From Cyclobacteriaceae bacterium (lineage in GTDB: Bacteria > Bacteroidota > Bacteroidia > Cytophagales > Cyclobacteriaceae): a DNA stretch of 64,000 bases. The notes below the pieces were generated by a model. It had not been told where the DNA came from. It saw nothing but the letters and a program-made list of their open reading frames with translations, and ran no database searches. The position numbers and the translations under genes are program-made. The stretch lies in assembly GCA_016787725.1 (NCBI GenBank), contig JAEUTZ010000021.1, positions 124,001-188,000 on the forward strand, in the 5' to 3' direction. This document shows positions 1-52,436 of the stretch, piece by piece; within the stretch, counting starts at the first letter, position 1, and every line of letters begins with the position of its first letter.

Positions 1-1627
1 CCGATGCATTTCCAAAATAAATTCCTGACCCGTTTGTCGAAGTTACCGAGATGTTTCCATTAATCGTAACCGTACCATCGTTTGCTAGTATGATTCCTGA
101 AGCGGTATTGGCATTGGTGCACGTAAGGGTAACATTTCCAGTGATCGTTGCTGTGCTCGCGGCATTCCGGGCAATAATGGTATTCACGGCTCCCGCGGTA
201 TTGCCACCATGATTAATGATCAGGTCTCCATTAATTTGATTCCCTACTGAGTTGATACCAACCTGCACCCGGGAGGTACCGGTATTATTAATCGTGAGTC
301 CTCCATTAAAGATATCTGGATTGGTATTGGCCAAATTAAACTGACCCGATCCGCTGTTTATGATGGTGCATGACCCTGTGAAGGTATTGCCTCCGGTTGA
401 ATCATCATCGGTAGCACCTGTCTTCTCCATTGTGGAGACACCACCAACCGTCATTCCATTCAGGAAAATTCGGGGTGCACGAAAATTTACATTACCGGCA
501 AAGGAAGCTCCCGGACCAACATCAAGGCGGGCAGTTCCCGTTAGCAGAATGGTATGGTTGTCAATAGCTCCAAATCGCTCCAAGCTAAGACGGCCGTCCG
601 GAAATGAACCAACGGTCAAAGTTCTGCCTGCAGCCAGCGTTGAACTGGCTGTCGCATTGTCGTTGAAATAAATTTCGTTGGCACTGCCTGTATTGGTTAT
701 AGCGATATTTCCATTGTAGGTAGATGTACCATTGACTCCCATCTGAATATCGGTAGCGGAATTTGTATTGGTAAGATTAATTGTTACCGTGCCACCGAAC
801 GTGGCTGAGGAACCTGTTCCTTGTAAAAACCGGTGGTTGCTTTGCAGCGTTCCAGCACAATTAATGGTGAAGGTGCCAGAAACGGAAAAACTGGTGTTGT
901 TCCCTTCGCTGACAAGGAATGACCAGGCATCAGCTCCACCCGATTTATTGGTATTGAGCGTAAGATCGGTAAACGTGGTAGTCTGCCCTCCGTGGTTATT
1001 AGCAAAATAGAAGCGATAGTTTCCATTGTTATTGAATATTGCTGGTGCGGTAAATTGATCACGGTTGGTGTTTCCAAGCAATACCCAGCCGCCTCCTAAA
1101 TTGGTAATAGTGGTAGTTCCATTGAATACATTGTTGCCGGTGCTGTTATCGTTATTGTTATCTGTTTTAGAAACAGTTACGGAGCCATTAAACGTGGAAC
1201 CGTTAAAGAATATCCGGCCTGTGCTTCCATTAACTTTAGCTCCGAATGTTGTACCATTGAAGGTTGTGCTGCCCGTTGTATTAAGGGTTAATGCCCCGGT
1301 GGCTCCTCCGTTATTGATAGTTCCGGTTGTAAAGGTATTATTACCGGTGGTCGTAAGGTCAAATCCATTCAGATCGATGGTGCCGGTATAGCCGTTCACC
1401 GTAATTCCCGCTACATTTGGAGCTATATCCAGTGTGCAATTCCCCAAACCGGTTGCATTAAAAAGTACGGCATCAGCCGGGCCTGGTACACCAACAGGTG
1501 ACCAATTTGCCCCGTTGTTCCAGTTGGACGCTCCGGCAGCCACCCAGGTTTTTTGAGCCAGGAGTTGGCCGGTGGATAAAACCACAAGGGCAGAAAGCAC
1601 TATGTAAGAATAGAGAATCTTTATCAT
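1..1627 (-). CDS. Large secreted Asn/Thr/Gly-rich repeat protein (N-terminal part, runs off left edge)
   Basis: Reading the minus strand from the ATG at 1627 gives 542 codons with no stop before the window edge. Residues 1-25 form a signal peptide ending QLLAQ. The mature part begins with a WVAAGASNWNNGANWS motif and continues with Thr/Asn/Gly-rich repeats of the kind GNNTFNG...TTTITN, which predict a right-handed beta-helix as in Bacteroidota adhesin-like surface proteins. The C-terminus, where a type IX sorting domain would lie, is outside the window. The plus-strand ORFs inside this span are antisense to it. The reading frame is clear; the surface/adhesin role is inference. Confidence 0.85.
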   Translation of the reverse strand, partial: MIKILYSYIVLSALVVLSTGQLLAQKTWVAAGASNWNNGANWSPVGVPGPADAVLFNATGLGNCTLDIAPNVAGITVNGYTGTIDLNGFDLTTTGNNTFTTGTINNGGATGALTLNTTGSTTFNGTTFGAKVNGSTGRIFFNGSTFNGSVTVSKTDNNNDNSTGNNVFNGTTTITNLGGGWVLLGNTNRDQFTAPAIFNNNGNYRFYFANNHGGQTTTFTDLTLNTNKSGGADAWSFLVSEGNNTSFSVSGTFTINCAGTLQSNHRFLQGTGSSATFGGTVTINLTNTNSATDIQMGVNGTSTYNGNIAITNTGSANEIYFNDNATASSTLAAGRTLTVGSFPDGRLSLERFGAIDNHTILLTGTARLDVGPGASFAGNVNFRAPRIFLNGMTVGGVSTMEKTGATDDDSTGGNTFTGSCTIINSGSGQFNLANTNPDIFNGGLTINNTGTSRVQVGINSVGNQINGDLIINHGGNTAGAVNTIIARNAASTATITGNVTLTCTNANTASGIILANDGTVTINGNISVTSTNGSGIYFGNAS

Positions 1628-49132: not shown

Positions 49133-49591
49133 ATGCGAAATATGAAAAGAGTGCTATTATTTTTTACGGTCATACTGTGTCAATCGGGATGGGCACAGGA
49201 CAAGCAGTACCTTAATCCGTTTGGAACGAAGCCTCCGGGGTATACCCATGTGGTGGTGACAGGCCCGGGCAAAACCATTTACATTTCAGGGCAGGTACCT
49301 ACGAATGGAGCCGGAGAAATTGTGGGCAAAGGGGACCTGAAAGCGCAAGTGACCCAGGTGTATGAAAATCTGAGTGTCGCTTTGAGAGCGGCCGGGGCTA
49401 CTTTTGATGATGTAGTAAAAATGAATACGTACGTAGTGAATTATAAGCCGGCTGATGTAACGGTGATCCGTGAGGTGCGTTCAAAATACCTGTCAAAGGA
49501 AAACCCACCCGCCAGTACGCTGGCAGGGGTTCAGGCCTTGTTTCATCCCGATGTGATGATCGAAATAGAGGCGATTGCCGTGGTCAAATAA
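49133..49591 (+). CDS. Secreted RidA-family protein without the catalytic arginine
   Basis: The 152-residue protein has a signal peptide (RVLLFFTVILCQSGWAQ) and the Rid fold: NPFGTKPPGYTHVVVTGPGKTIYISGQVPTNGAGE, QVYENLSVALRAAGATFDDVVKMNTYVV, and the C-terminal MIEIEAIAVV. In RidA proper the strand before the last one reads PARSxVxV with the Arg that binds the enamine acid; here the region reads NPPASTLAGVQALF, with Ser in its place. So deaminase activity is doubtful. It begins on the base after the GH30 stop, so the two are in one operon. Confidence 0.85.
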   Translation: MRNMKRVLLFFTVILCQSGWAQDKQYLNPFGTKPPGYTHVVVTGPGKTIYISGQVPTNGAGEIVGKGDLKAQVTQVYENLSVALRAAGATFDDVVKMNTYVVNYKPADVTVIREVRSKYLSKENPPASTLAGVQALFHPDVMIEIEAIAVVK

Positions 49592-49664
49592 ATAGTTTTT
49601 ACAGAACCCTGACTTTAATTACCTTTGCCGGAATTCTTGCGGACGGTAAGATCATTTAGTTTTT

Positions 49665-49736
49665 GGTTCCGTAGTACAATGGATAGTATTTCAGATTCCG
49701 ATTCTGAAGATGCAGGTTCGATTCCTGCCGGGACTA
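49665..49736 (+). tRNA. tRNA-Arg (anticodon CCG)
   Basis: A 72-nt cloverleaf: acceptor GGTTCCG/CGGGACT with G-T pairs, D-arm GTAC/GTAT with GG in the loop, anticodon stem TCAGA/TCTGA with loop TTCCGAT (anticodon CCG), T-stem GCAGG/CCTGC with loop TTCGATT and discriminator A. CCA is not encoded. It reads CGG codons. Its 3' part is repeated downstream of the GIY-YIG gene. Confidence 0.93.
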
Positions 49737-49741
49737 CAAAT
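49709..49741 (+). repeat. 33-bp direct repeat, upstream copy: 3' end of tRNA-Arg
   Basis: This segment starts with GATGCAGGTTC and ends GGGACTACAAAT. It covers the last 28 bases of the tRNA (end of the variable region, T-arm and acceptor 3' half) plus 5 flanking bases. The same 33 bases recur at 49988-49998 and 50026-50047, interrupted by a 27-bp insert. Confidence 0.9.
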
Positions 49742-49750
49742 CTTTCGATT

Positions 49751-50011
49751 TTGAATTGGTTTGTTTATGTGCTTCAAAGTGAAATCGATTCAACTTTTTA
49801 TGTAGGGATGTCGCAAGATGTAAAGAAGCGACTCATTGAGCACAATTCAGGAAAATCAAAATACACTTCAGGTCATCGTCCCTGGAAGTTGATTTACTTT
49901 GAAGAGGCGGGTACATCCACAGATGCTCGCAAACGGGAAAAATATTTCAAATCCGCTGCCGGTAAAAAGTATCTTCATAAAATAATTGATGCAGGTTCCC
50001 TGCCTGCGTGA
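49751..50011 (+). CDS. GIY-YIG nuclease domain protein (UPF0213-like)
   Basis: The 86-residue single-domain protein from TTG 49751 runs NWFVYVLQSE...STFYVGMSQDVKKRLIEHNSG, which carries the YVL and YVG strands and the catalytic Arg of the GIY-YIG fold (Y-x-G-x-s-x-D-x-x-x-R). RPWKLIYFEE, then ARKREKYFKSAAGKKYL with the catalytic Glu of REK follow. Such domains cut DNA in UvrC and homing nucleases. The frame is open back through the tRNA, but that part is an RNA gene. The C-terminus DAGSLPA comes from the repeat and the palindrome insert, which supplies the stop codon. Confidence 0.85.
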   Translation: MNWFVYVLQSEIDSTFYVGMSQDVKKRLIEHNSGKSKYTSGHRPWKLIYFEEAGTSTDARKREKYFKSAAGKKYLHKIIDAGSLPA

Positions 50012-50047
50012 GGCAGTCAGGCAGGGATTCCTGCCGGGACTACAAAT
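49988..50047 (+). repeat. 33-bp direct repeat, displaced copy, interrupted by a 27-bp insert
   Basis: Bases 49988-49998 (GATGCAGGTTC) and 50026-50047 (GATTCC...TACAAAT) together reproduce the 33 bases at 49709-49741 without mismatch. The break falls in the T-loop position of the tRNA sequence. Confidence 0.88.
49999..50025. repeat. 27-bp palindromic insert within the displaced repeat copy
   Basis: The insert starts CCTGCCTG and ends CAGGCAGG, a perfect 8-bp inverted repeat around GTGAGGCAGT, so it folds as a hairpin. It is 27 bases long, a multiple of three, and contains the TGA stop of the nuclease gene. It looks like a small palindromic mobile repeat. Confidence 0.8.
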
Positions 50048-50051
50048 TCAT

Positions 50052-50088
50052 AAATCCTTTAATTCAAAAATGAGTTGAAGGATTTTTT
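50052..50088 (+). terminator. Intrinsic terminator downstream of the tRNA/GIY-YIG locus
   Basis: A 14-bp stem AAATCCTTTAATTC (50052-50065) with GAGTTGAAGGATTT (50072-50085), including two G-T pairs, followed by T residues. It is 5 bp after the displaced tRNA end, as expected for the original tRNA-Arg terminator. Confidence 0.85.
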
Positions 50089-50195
50089 ATTTGTATTCGG
50101 CCAATAGGATCTCAAATTATTTCCGCGCAATCGCCTGTTCCTTTTACCAAAAAGGAAAACATTCACTTCCTGTTTCCGGTCTTTAAAAAATTCAA

Positions 50196-52436
50196 TTATC
50201 TCAAAACGTAGCCGATGGTAAGGAAGTAAGTTCTACCATCCGCGGGCAGAACACCCGGTCCCGGATAGCCACCGGCTCTGCGCGTAAAGTAGCGTTCATT
50301 TAACAGGTTATTTGCCCCTGCTTTCAAAGAGAATCCGGATTTGTGTTTATAGCCAAGGGTAGCATCCAGAATGGAATACGAAGGCACCAGTCCATTCTGT
50401 GCATTGGCAGTCGCTGCTTCGGTATTGTTTGCATCGGTAAACACCTTGTCGGTATAGCTATACTGGAGGGTTGTTTCTAACGCTCGAAAAGAATACGTTA
50501 TTCCGGTGCGAAAAATATTCTCAGGGGCATATTCAACCTTGTTATCCTTATAGTTGGTTTCACTCAAGGCATTGTTCACCACCGTAACCACTTTTAAATT
50601 CTCATAGCGTGCATCATTGTAGGAATATGATGCAAAGATGCCTAACCCTGCATTCTTCGCTGAGCGGCTTAACACCTTTGTAACATTTAACTCTCCGAAA
50701 ACTTCAGCGCCTTTGGCATTGCTGCTTCCTACATTGGTGCGGTAGTTATAAAATGACCCATCCACGCTTTGCTGCTTAATGGTTCCGATCCGGTTGTCAT
50801 AATCAAGATGGAATACACTCACATCGAAGCGAAATAAATCCTGTATATCCCCCCGGTAGCCAACATCTATATTTAATCCTTTGGCATCGGTTAGATTGGG
50901 ATCAATGATATCCGTTGTGGGGGGTGTAGTAAGGTCAGCAAATTGTACAGGGCGATAGGACTGGGTAGCATTGGCATACAACTTGGTTGTGCCCGTAAGC
51001 AAATACTCCACACCGATACCACCAATTACAAAGCCACGCGCGCGTTCCTGATCTTGTAAATAAACCGGATTGCCATTGGTCAGGCTGTTGTAGCCCGTTG
51101 CTTCGGCCTGCAGGTATTCATAACGCACACCCGGAATAATCAATAGCTTCTCCGTGATGCTGAAAAGATTTTCAACAAATACCGCTGCATTTCTACTCCG
51201 GTAGTCAATGTCGCCTGTCCACGTACCGCTAACTAAACTGATATCATACCCGGTGCCGGTAGTTCCCTGGCCACCCCGGTAACGGAACGTGCTTCCCGAG
51301 TAAAGCCGCATACCTGCACTCAGGTTATGCCCCTGGCCCCCGGCCTGATAGGTGAGGAGGTACCGGGCTTCTACTCCATTGTTGCGATAATGATCGATGT
51401 CTACCGTGCGATTGCTATACGCACCCGTGGCGGGGTTGATTGCATCCGCTACGGTAATCCCGCCAGCGGGGAAATACCCGACACTGTTGCGATCGCCCAG
51501 AATATTAAAGAGCTTCAGGTTGAGGTGTTGATTGGAGTTGATCTTGTAATCGGCACGGAGTGCAGCCGTCTGCCAGGTAAGGTCAAACCAGTTTCTGCTT
51601 CGTACGCTTTGTTGCGGGTTACTATTGAATTGTGCATCGGTAAGGCCACCGGGTTGTTGACTGGTTGAATGCCATCGGGTAAATTCCGTTGTAATGGAAA
51701 CCTGATCATTTAAGTGATAGGTGAAAGTTCCGGAGCCGGTGTTGCTTTTGTATTGATTATTGTCGCGCCATCCATCGGCATTACGGTGATCGAAGAACGC
51801 ATAGTAGTTCAACTTCCTGGTCTTGCCGCCAATTGCATTATAGGTATTGAACAATCCAAAACTTCCAACGGTTTGAAAAGTTTCTACTTGAAAGGGCTTT
51901 GTAAATTCACTTCCATTCTTGAGAATATAATTAACCATACCCCCGATTTGGGGTCCGTATTGCAAGGCACCGTGGCCGCGCACGAATTCAATTCTTTGAA
52001 CGGATTGCAGTTGCGGATTATAGTATGCCTCGGGATAACCGTATGGATCAGCGGCAATGTCATAGCCGTTTTGTCTTACATTGAATTCCCAGGAGCGGTT
52101 GGGACTCAAACCGCGGCTGGCGATGTTAATCTGAAGACCGCTGCTCTCACTCTCCCAAATAAAAATGCCCGGCACTTTGGCCATTACCTGGCGCATGGTA
52201 TTGGTAACTACGTTGCCCTGCACATTGTCCAATACGATGAGGGAGCTTTTCTTTCCGGCATAGATGTTCGTGCCCACGATTTCGGGCAGTTGGTGAATAT
52301 CCGACTTGCTGCCGCGCCCAACCACGGTAATTTCTGCCAAAATTCTGGTATTCAAGGTATCCGACTCCCGGGAGTCTTGAGCATGGGCCAGTGTTGCAAA
52401 CGAAGCAAAAACGGCTAAAACAGCGGAATTCTTCAT
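50196..52436 (-). CDS. TonB-dependent outer-membrane receptor, FecA-like
   Basis: Outer-membrane 22-strand barrel of 746 residues for TonB/ExbBD-driven uptake. A signal peptide (SAVLAVFASFATLAHAQ) is followed by a TonB-box-like EITVVGRG near residue 35, the plug domain (VVTNTMRQVMAKVPGIFIWES, INIASRGLSPNRSWEFNVRQNGYDI) and a long barrel ending in RYFTRRAGGYPGPGVLPADGRTYFLTIGYVLR. The plug pattern GLSPNRSWEFNVRQNGYDIAADPYG is closest to FecA-type receptors for ferric citrate. There is no N-terminal signalling domain. Two Fur-like boxes overlap its promoter, so iron uptake is the likely role. Confidence 0.94.
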   Translation of the reverse strand: MKNSAVLAVFASFATLAHAQDSRESDTLNTRILAEITVVGRGSKSDIHQLPEIVGTNIYAGKKSSLIVLDNVQGNVVTNTMRQVMAKVPGIFIWESESSGLQINIASRGLSPNRSWEFNVRQNGYDIAADPYGYPEAYYNPQLQSVQRIEFVRGHGALQYGPQIGGMVNYILKNGSEFTKPFQVETFQTVGSFGLFNTYNAIGGKTRKLNYYAFFDHRNADGWRDNNQYKSNTGSGTFTYHLNDQVSITTEFTRWHSTSQQPGGLTDAQFNSNPQQSVRSRNWFDLTWQTAALRADYKINSNQHLNLKLFNILGDRNSVGYFPAGGITVADAINPATGAYSNRTVDIDHYRNNGVEARYLLTYQAGGQGHNLSAGMRLYSGSTFRYRGGQGTTGTGYDISLVSGTWTGDIDYRSRNAAVFVENLFSITEKLLIIPGVRYEYLQAEATGYNSLTNGNPVYLQDQERARGFVIGGIGVEYLLTGTTKLYANATQSYRPVQFADLTTPPTTDIIDPNLTDAKGLNIDVGYRGDIQDLFRFDVSVFHLDYDNRIGTIKQQSVDGSFYNYRTNVGSSNAKGAEVFGELNVTKVLSRSAKNAGLGIFASYSYNDARYENLKVVTVVNNALSETNYKDNKVEYAPENIFRTGITYSFRALETTLQYSYTDKVFTDANNTEAATANAQNGLVPSYSILDATLGYKHKSGFSLKAGANNLLNERYFTRRAGGYPGPGVLPADGRTYFLTIGYVLR

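Follow-up and report, generated by a model that had tools for sequence, protein, structure and literature searches.

Introduction

Elements that insert at the 3′ ends of tRNA genes by means of a tyrosine integrase duplicate the tRNA end and restore the tRNA. Proteins of the UPF0213 and Slx1 type are, to our knowledge, not known as tRNA-linked elements. SegB, a free-standing GIY-YIG homing endonuclease of phages T4 and T6, cuts within phage tRNA genes, with the T-loop sequence RAWTSGAAC as cutting motif in 23/83 sites, and drives segmental amplification of the tRNA genes together with segB; the enzyme is reported to show no isotype preference (PMC13096335). In fungal mitochondria (Allomyces atp6; Glomus atp6, atp9, cox2 and nad3), the open reading frames (ORFs) termed mORFs are endonuclease genes situated in a gene with a duplicated end; the duplication rebuilds the invaded gene, whose native end persists on the far side of the insert; the endonuclease of the atp9 case is of the GIY-YIG type (PMC3630166). 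Here, we analysed a stretch of 64,000 nucleotides from a Cyclobacteriaceae bacterium (contig JAEUTZ010000021.1, positions 124,001–188,000; the window), in which a small GIY-YIG nuclease gene lies between an intact tRNA-Arg(CCG) gene and a second, split copy of the end of the same tRNA.

We propose, with a probability of roughly 0.6, that this locus represents a widespread family of minimal, integrase-free elements of tRNA genes, in which the nuclease breaks the gene at a conserved loop and repair leaves a duplicated tRNA end. Among the titles and abstracts listed in searches of the open-access literature, none was found on GIY-YIG genes with duplicated tRNA ends in bacteria, and the arrangement is not described in the available parts of PMC1564403 (on the GIY-YIG superfamily) and PMC3984707 (on bacterial group I introns).

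Results

The tRNA-Arg(CCG) locus of the window

The features of the locus are collected in Table 1. As a first-pass annotation of the window had recognized, the end of the tRNA recurs beyond the nuclease gene without mismatch (33/33 bases identical between 49709–49741 and 49988–49998 plus 50026–50047), although the division of the repeat into 28 tRNA bases and 5 flanking bases has to be corrected to 29 and 4. The two parts of the second copy, with start-to-start offsets of 279 and 306 from the first, and the terminator-like hairpin behind them had also been described correctly, but the 27-bp palindrome between the parts had been missed. The leftover copy folds as one long hairpin, in which the T stem is extended by the insert (z −4.1). 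The pattern of the palindrome, CCTGCCYG-N(2–16)-CAGGCRGG, has exactly one match in the 4.2-Mb genome, at this locus, and an abundant repeat resembling those of the repetitive extragenic palindromic (REP) and REP-associated tyrosine transposase (RAYT) systems was therefore rejected for the source genome.

The reading frame of the nuclease stays open upstream to 49625, across the whole tRNA, so that its start codon is uncertain. The sequence TACCTTTG fits TAnnTTTG, which we take to be the promoter element of Bacteroidota; a sigma-70 promoter scan of the locus gave no promoter. Two further origins, already discounted on first reading, were rejected here as well: an integrase-driven element, since the GIY-YIG gene is the sole gene in the unit, which is without a site-specific recombinase, and a self-splicing (group I) intron, since the tRNA is the sole Rfam match (E ≤ 1) within 49300–50500 and no known intron family is thus represented.

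Table 1. Features of the tRNA-Arg(CCG) locus, in positions of the window.
Feature	Position	Strand	Basis
Putative promoter for tRNA and nuclease gene, TACCTTTG	49620..49627	+	Read in the sequence
tRNA-Arg(CCG), intact	49665..49737	+	ARAGORN; Rfam RF00005, 63.8 bits
Duplicated stretch, first copy: tRNA positions 45–73 and 4 bases beyond	49709..49741	+	Sequence comparison
GIY-YIG nuclease ORF, TTG start, 86 amino acids; stop codon within the 27-bp hairpin	49751..50011	+	PF01541
Second copy, inner part (11 bp): variable loop, T stem, start of T loop	49988..49998	+	Sequence comparison
27-bp hairpin (palindrome) in T loop of second copy, between GGTTC and GATTCC	49999..50025	+	Single genome match of the pattern
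Second copy, outer part (22 bp): rest of T arm, 3′ acceptor strand, 4 bases beyond	50026..50047	+	Sequence comparison
Terminator-like hairpin, 15 pairs; probable native tRNA-gene terminator	50052..50085	+	Hairpin scan, folding

Association of the nuclease genes with tRNA genes

Loci were drawn from a genus set, in which 63/63 genomes had PF01541 matches and 60 further regions were taken from among the matches listed, a phylum set of 296 genomes, 187 of them with a match at E ≤ 1e-10 and one locus per genome taken for the best, and a named set of one-genome-per-species contigs, of which 80 of 174 loci were used. Merging all sets and dropping duplicates by gene sequence gave 204 loci, 172 of which form a strong subfamily (profile E < 1e-20). 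In this subfamily a tRNA gene lies within 300 bp of the nuclease gene at 148/172 loci, the nearest one being on the same strand in 148 cases and on the opposite strand in none, and beyond the gene 132 of the 148 carry a partial copy of that nearest tRNA. The 32 weaker loci comprise 23 with no tRNA, eight with a tRNA (seven of them with a copy) and one at a contig edge, and as the loci come mainly from the best-scoring matches, the tRNA-linked fraction among weak matches is less certain.

The copies were controlled in 156 loci, at least three duplicates being left in. Beyond the gene, a match to the tRNA of the locus itself was found in 139/156 loci at a score of at least 26 and in 131/156 at a score of at least 36, compared with 6/156 and 0/156 for a tRNA of another isotype, so that the duplication is not due to chance; in the next 330 bp outward the figures for the own tRNA are 11/156 and 10/156. 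Among tRNA loci that lack the GIY-YIG gene, 41/49 score below 26 (one locus one-sided), eight reach 26 and four reach 36.

In the named set, tRNA and copy occur together at 59/80 loci, a tRNA without copy at ten and no tRNA at 11. Copies were found in 42/49 of its Bacteroidota loci, and cases outside this phylum belong to Ignavibacteriota, Fidelibacterota, Omnitrophota, Planctomycetota and several lineages of Patescibacteria. A further set of 20 regions gave 18 with tRNA and copy and two without a tRNA in reach. The 139 copies carry 30 tRNA labels, one of them uncertain. A search for GIY-YIG genes flanked by a duplication near tRNA 3′ ends had been suggested in the first-pass annotation, and a tRNA-linked gene family was indeed found. 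Neither of the cases that it had named against its reading, empty-site relatives with unchanged spacing and no duplication or genes with the same flanks away from tRNAs, overturned it, with 41/49 tRNA loci without the gene scoring below 26 and 148/172 genes at tRNAs; the mirror-image arrangement of the 5′ type, the occurrence at other tRNAs and the distribution across phyla had escaped it.

The source genome itself has ten GIY-YIG matches, five of which adjoin a tRNA: Arg(CCG) in the window, Ser(TGA), Leu(GAG), Ser(GGA), at a contig end, and Pro(TGG). By eye, the Ser(TGA) locus is the mirror image of the window locus, with a degenerate 5′ tRNA part, which has hairpins in its D and anticodon loops, followed by the gene and then by the intact tRNA. 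Stops are present in both the Leu(GAG) and the Pro(TGG) gene. Among the loci then compared, the gene closest to that of the window (61% identical; L035) sits at tRNA-Leu(CAA), and its leftover copy is that of the Leu tRNA; the copy therefore follows the local tRNA and not the kin of the gene.

As a separate observation, GIY-YIG genes of the non-tRNA kind lie between apparent repeats at two loci of the source genome (L001:1200–2000 and L004:1200–1950), and at the first of these CTTCGACAGGCTCAG-type palindromes flank the gene on both sides, as judged by eye; these genes may represent a second repeat-associated GIY-YIG system.

Two types of arrangement and the hairpin in the leftover copy

The 139 copies divide into 81 of the 3′ type and 58 of the 5′ type; the spacer and flank measurements that follow refer to single-gene loci without duplicates. 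In the 3′ type (n = 69) the spacer is 42 bp and the duplication extends beyond the tRNA by a median of 7 bp (at least 25 bp in 25/69, maximum 89), spanning the terminator in L298 and L292. The gene is downstream of the tRNA, which would keep its own promoter. In the 5′ type (n = 52) a median of 5 bp separates the gene domain from the intact tRNA, and the duplicated upstream flank has a median of 0 bp (at least 10 bp in 4/52, maximum 50). Here the leftover 5′ part, which has the native upstream flank, comes first, followed by the gene and then by the intact tRNA, which is therefore probably co-transcribed with the gene; the stop codon of the gene falls within the intact tRNA at 37/67 5′-type loci. 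In most 5′-type loci the tRNA would thus depend on transcription through the nuclease gene.

Tandem arrays of at least three cassettes at one tRNA were observed at L290 (2026–3659), L137, L267, L268 and L269; the array of L290 has five units, and the four compared are 99.7–100% identical.

An internal insert of at least 12 bases is present in 106/139 copies, and a hairpin with a perfect stem of at least 5 in 81/139. Of these hairpins, 67/90 are situated within a loop or at its edge, compared with 34.6% expected (p = 1.3e-14, with related loci that are not independent). With repeats removed, the 3′ type accounts for 28/29 T-loop hairpins and the 5′ type for 28/30 D-loop hairpins, and when all inserts of at least 12 bases are considered without a stem filter (n = 125), the corresponding figures are 37/39 and 36/43, with eight inserts in the anticodon loop. 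Frequent split points are between GGTTC and GA or after GGTTCGA, and between GGATA and G or GGTA and G. The split point of the 3′-type hairpins coincides with GTTCSAWTY, the reverse complement of the reported SegB motif RAWTSGAAC (PMC13096335), which would lend independent support to a presumed cut site in the T loop.

The position of the hairpin in the copy is constant and its sequence is variable, and at the Pro(TGG) loci compared another hairpin replaces the anticodon arm of the copy. One 20-mer, CCTGCCTGCCGGCAGGCAGG, is shared exactly by Arg copies in Bacteroidota, where it lies at the D-loop end, and by copies from two Patescibacteria (L174 and L206), where it lies in the D stem. Genome-wide it is rare, being present in 23/296 genomes, all 23 being among the 187 with the GIY-YIG family (kinship uncorrected). 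Taking one site from each of these 23 genomes, one lies in a tRNA copy beside a GIY-YIG gene and two others within 70 bp of a tRNA; the three sites in the source genome at up to two mismatches are not at tRNAs.

The nuclease

By its PF01541 match (1.5e-16, over the cut-off), its invariant residues and its fold matches, the window protein is a member of the GIY-YIG superfamily. Residues Y5, Y16, G18, R26, H30 and E62, presumably the catalytic positions of the domain, are invariant across 30 sequences. The AlphaFold2 model has a predicted local distance difference test score (pLDDT) of 94.9, and profile and fold searches place UPF0213 nearest (1zg2, 4.1e-17), followed by Slx1 (2.2e-8), with I-TevI far behind (2.8e-3); the Slx1 entries matched in the profile search bear the title structure-specific endonuclease. 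The nuclease is under purifying selection: the ratio of nonsynonymous to synonymous substitution rates (dN/dS) has a median of 0.15 in 45 usable, non-independent pairs, all of which are below 0.5, with 187 further pairs being saturated or undefined.

An ATG lies between the tRNA and the domain in 75/89 3′-type genes, and a start codon inside the tRNA is therefore not general; it is possible for some Arg(CCG) loci of the 3′ type. In a comparison by eye of window positions 49754–49987 with L044 and L118, the nuclease appears mosaic: the window gene is 61–67% identical to tRNA-Leu(CAA) genes, and over its last ~20 residues it agrees with the Arg(CCG) gene of L118, from another species, which suggests a mosaic or the product of a target switch.

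Gene phylogeny and occupied and empty tRNA genes

The phylogeny of the GIY-YIG gene follows the tRNA isotype and not the genome. The gene tree (149 tips) requires 45 isotype changes, compared with 95.7 for shuffled labels (40 shuffles, minimum 92). For the 56 tips of the genus alone, 17 isotype changes are required compared with 40.0 when shuffled, and the genome label is not clustered (50 changes compared with 48.6).

The search of 39 relatives gave 21 same-genus loci with tRNA-Arg(CCG), among which the gene is present in three (L023 of the 3′ type, L017 and L020 of the 5′ type), broken tRNA copies without the gene are found in two (L014 and L026), and 16 have neither the gene nor a clear copy, one of these being borderline (L021, upstream score 26.2). 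Beside the intact tRNA, L014 (1573–2000) has three broken units and L026 (1502–1850) has three 92-bp repeats; the copies in both are broken by hairpins, no nuclease gene was detected in either, and the arrays are probably relics.

A second comparison was made at tRNA-Pro(TGG) in another genus, where 150 genomes were searched with an occupied locus and 30 loci were compared; four are occupied (L286, L290, L292 and L298) and 26 are unoccupied. Occupied L298 and empty L304 are 86% identical over 691 bp upstream and 83% over ~1,320 bp downstream, and between the tRNA and the flank common to both, L298 carries the gene, the copy and a second terminator. Occupied and empty alleles therefore exist at one site, as the first-pass annotation had anticipated. 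The outer (right) copy of L298 joins the flank that adjoins the tRNA in L304, which bears out the view that the second copy is the original tRNA end. In the tree of the flanks of the 30 loci the occupied alleles are scattered, with four changes (shuffled mean 3.9, minimum 3), and two of them are sisters to empty alleles. A side observation concerns L287, an empty relative of L266, in which tRNA-Pro(TGG) (1340–1415, minus strand) is inverted together with its surroundings, between flanks that share 89% and 86% identity with the flanks of the occupied relative; this hints at flipping of the tRNA gene in an empty allele.

The first copy had been thought to be brought in by the element, and this claim is not supported. 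The copies match the local tRNA. The duplicated terminator was compared at three of the four occupied loci; at two (L286 and L298) it is similar to the terminator of the closest empty relative, and that of L292 resembles the terminator of the farther L307 and not that of its near relative L295. Local duplication or later homogenization is therefore at least as likely as a foreign origin. From this limited evidence in the sequences the duplication looks locally made or homogenized. As tRNAs are too conserved, the match of the tRNA cannot by itself show the origin of the rebuilt end.

Discussion

Proposed mechanism

In the unit described here, a GIY-YIG gene of ~80 codons separates an intact tRNA from a leftover part of the same tRNA, and this leftover is often broken by a hairpin. 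In the mechanism that we propose, the nuclease would break a conserved loop of a tRNA gene, for the most part the T loop in the 3′ type and the D loop in the 5′ type, and repair would leave the cassette and a duplicated tRNA end, with one complete tRNA gene always remaining; the hairpin in the leftover copy would then split the presumed cut site. A homing-like invasion, with possible movement between cells, fits best with a gene located at its presumed target, with isotype-faithful clades and with the empty alleles. More tentatively, and with somewhat less than even confidence, a single structure-sensing nuclease of 80 residues could constitute a hitherto unrecognized class of mobile elements in Bacteroidota, Ignavibacteriota, Patescibacteria and others, which would invade the two most conserved loops of tRNAs, duplicate the tRNA end and so leave the host viable, and seal the leftover with a hairpin, the 5′ form making the tRNA dependent on the element, which would hence be hard to lose.

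Several observations weigh against this mechanism. No copy is seen at 16/148 tRNA-linked genes, and 24/172 loci of the strong subfamily are without a tRNA, some of them at contig ends. A hairpin insert with a stem of at least 5 was not detected in 58/139 copies, 35/125 inserts lie outside the three loops, and the 3′ type also duplicates up to 89 bp of flank. The domain is nearer to Slx1 and UPF0213 than to I-TevI and is without a separate DNA-binding domain. In the leftover copy a recurring loop position is frequently interrupted, but the intact tRNA keeps that sequence; as it thereby retains the presumed target, self-cutting is unexplained. Carriage by phages or plasmids was rejected: 16 phage and two plasmid records match, with hosts Rhizobium or Listeria, or in two cases no stated host, one of these being from human faeces, and none of them reaches 60% identity. 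The GIY-YIG proteins of the four occupied tRNA-Pro loci are 56–64% identical compared with 73–80% for the flanks as DNA, and no recent exchange among them is therefore seen; gain on several occasions from different sources, rapid change, or an old presence followed by many losses could each account for this. Cleavage of the tRNA gene and transfer of the element are what we infer from the arrangement of these loci.

Alternative explanations

The alternative that survives best, although we regard it as unlikely, is that an Slx1-like structure-specific nuclease cuts hairpins that tRNA genes extrude and moves or inserts palindromes into hairpin loops, in which case the hairpin would be the true, REP-like mobile end. 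UPF0213 and Slx1 are indeed the closest solved relatives, the preference of the (non-independent) hairpins for loops and the differing hairpin sequences at the same loop position agree with this, and CCTGCCTGCCGGCAGGCAGG occurs at non-tRNA sites too, its genomes all lying within the GIY-bearing group; however, the palindrome is rare in its own genome, unlike REPs, and the tracking of isotype implies recognition beyond shape.

Less probable still is local tandem duplication, in which a resident UPF0213-type gene was trapped downstream of tRNA promoters and was then inherited vertically with recombination and without homing. The nearly identical units of the L290 array, the host-like duplicated terminators in two of four loci and the lack of clear recent transfer agree with this, but it leaves unexplained the same arrangement at ~30 tRNA species in several phyla, the rule of D and T loops, the isotype-specific clades and the occupied alleles scattered among empty ones. 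Comparably improbable is a tRNA-cutting toxin restrained by a decoy RNA transcribed from the hairpin-blocked copy, which would suit the isotype-tracking clades, the single long hairpin of the window copy and the swapped anticodon arm of the Pro(TGG) copies, but a toxin pair need not adjoin its target gene, as 148/172 loci do and always on the same strand, many copies, including that of the window, are only tRNA halves, and we know of no GIY-YIG tRNase.

Comparison with known systems

If the proposed invasion of tRNA genes is correct, these cassettes would rank with the smallest bacterial elements of the homing type and would account for many of the small genes annotated as 'GIY-YIG nuclease family', and for tRNA fragments, in genomes of Bacteroidota and candidate phyla. 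As tRNA genes are essential and nearly universal, an element that enters and rebuilds them would have almost unlimited targets, and the question of how an enzyme that has nothing but a catalytic domain locates a single tRNA species becomes testable.

With the tyrosine-integrase elements the cassettes share the duplication of the tRNA end and the restoration of the tRNA; in contrast to them, they have no integrase, measure ~0.3 kb, occur also at 5′ ends and often have a leftover copy broken by a hairpin. With UPF0213 and Slx1 the nuclease has sequence and fold in common. As in the mORFs, the invaded gene is rebuilt and its native end lies beyond the endonuclease gene, as shown by the right copy that joins the shared flank and by the copies at 132/148 loci. 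The mORFs, however, reside in mitochondrial protein genes and their rebuilt end is held to be foreign, whereas the copies of the cassettes match the local tRNA, and the word hairpin is absent from that paper, whereas the cassettes have hairpins and both 5′ and 3′ types (PMC3630166). Compared with SegB, which is borne by phages, the cassettes are chromosomal, their protein (86 amino acids in the window) is nearer to Slx1 and UPF0213, and no rebuilt tRNA with a hairpin-broken leftover copy is described for SegB in the available part of its report (PMC13096335). In both systems a GIY-YIG nuclease gene adjoins tRNA genes, and the proposed family, if real, would connect chromosomal elements with the phage SegB/tRNA system.
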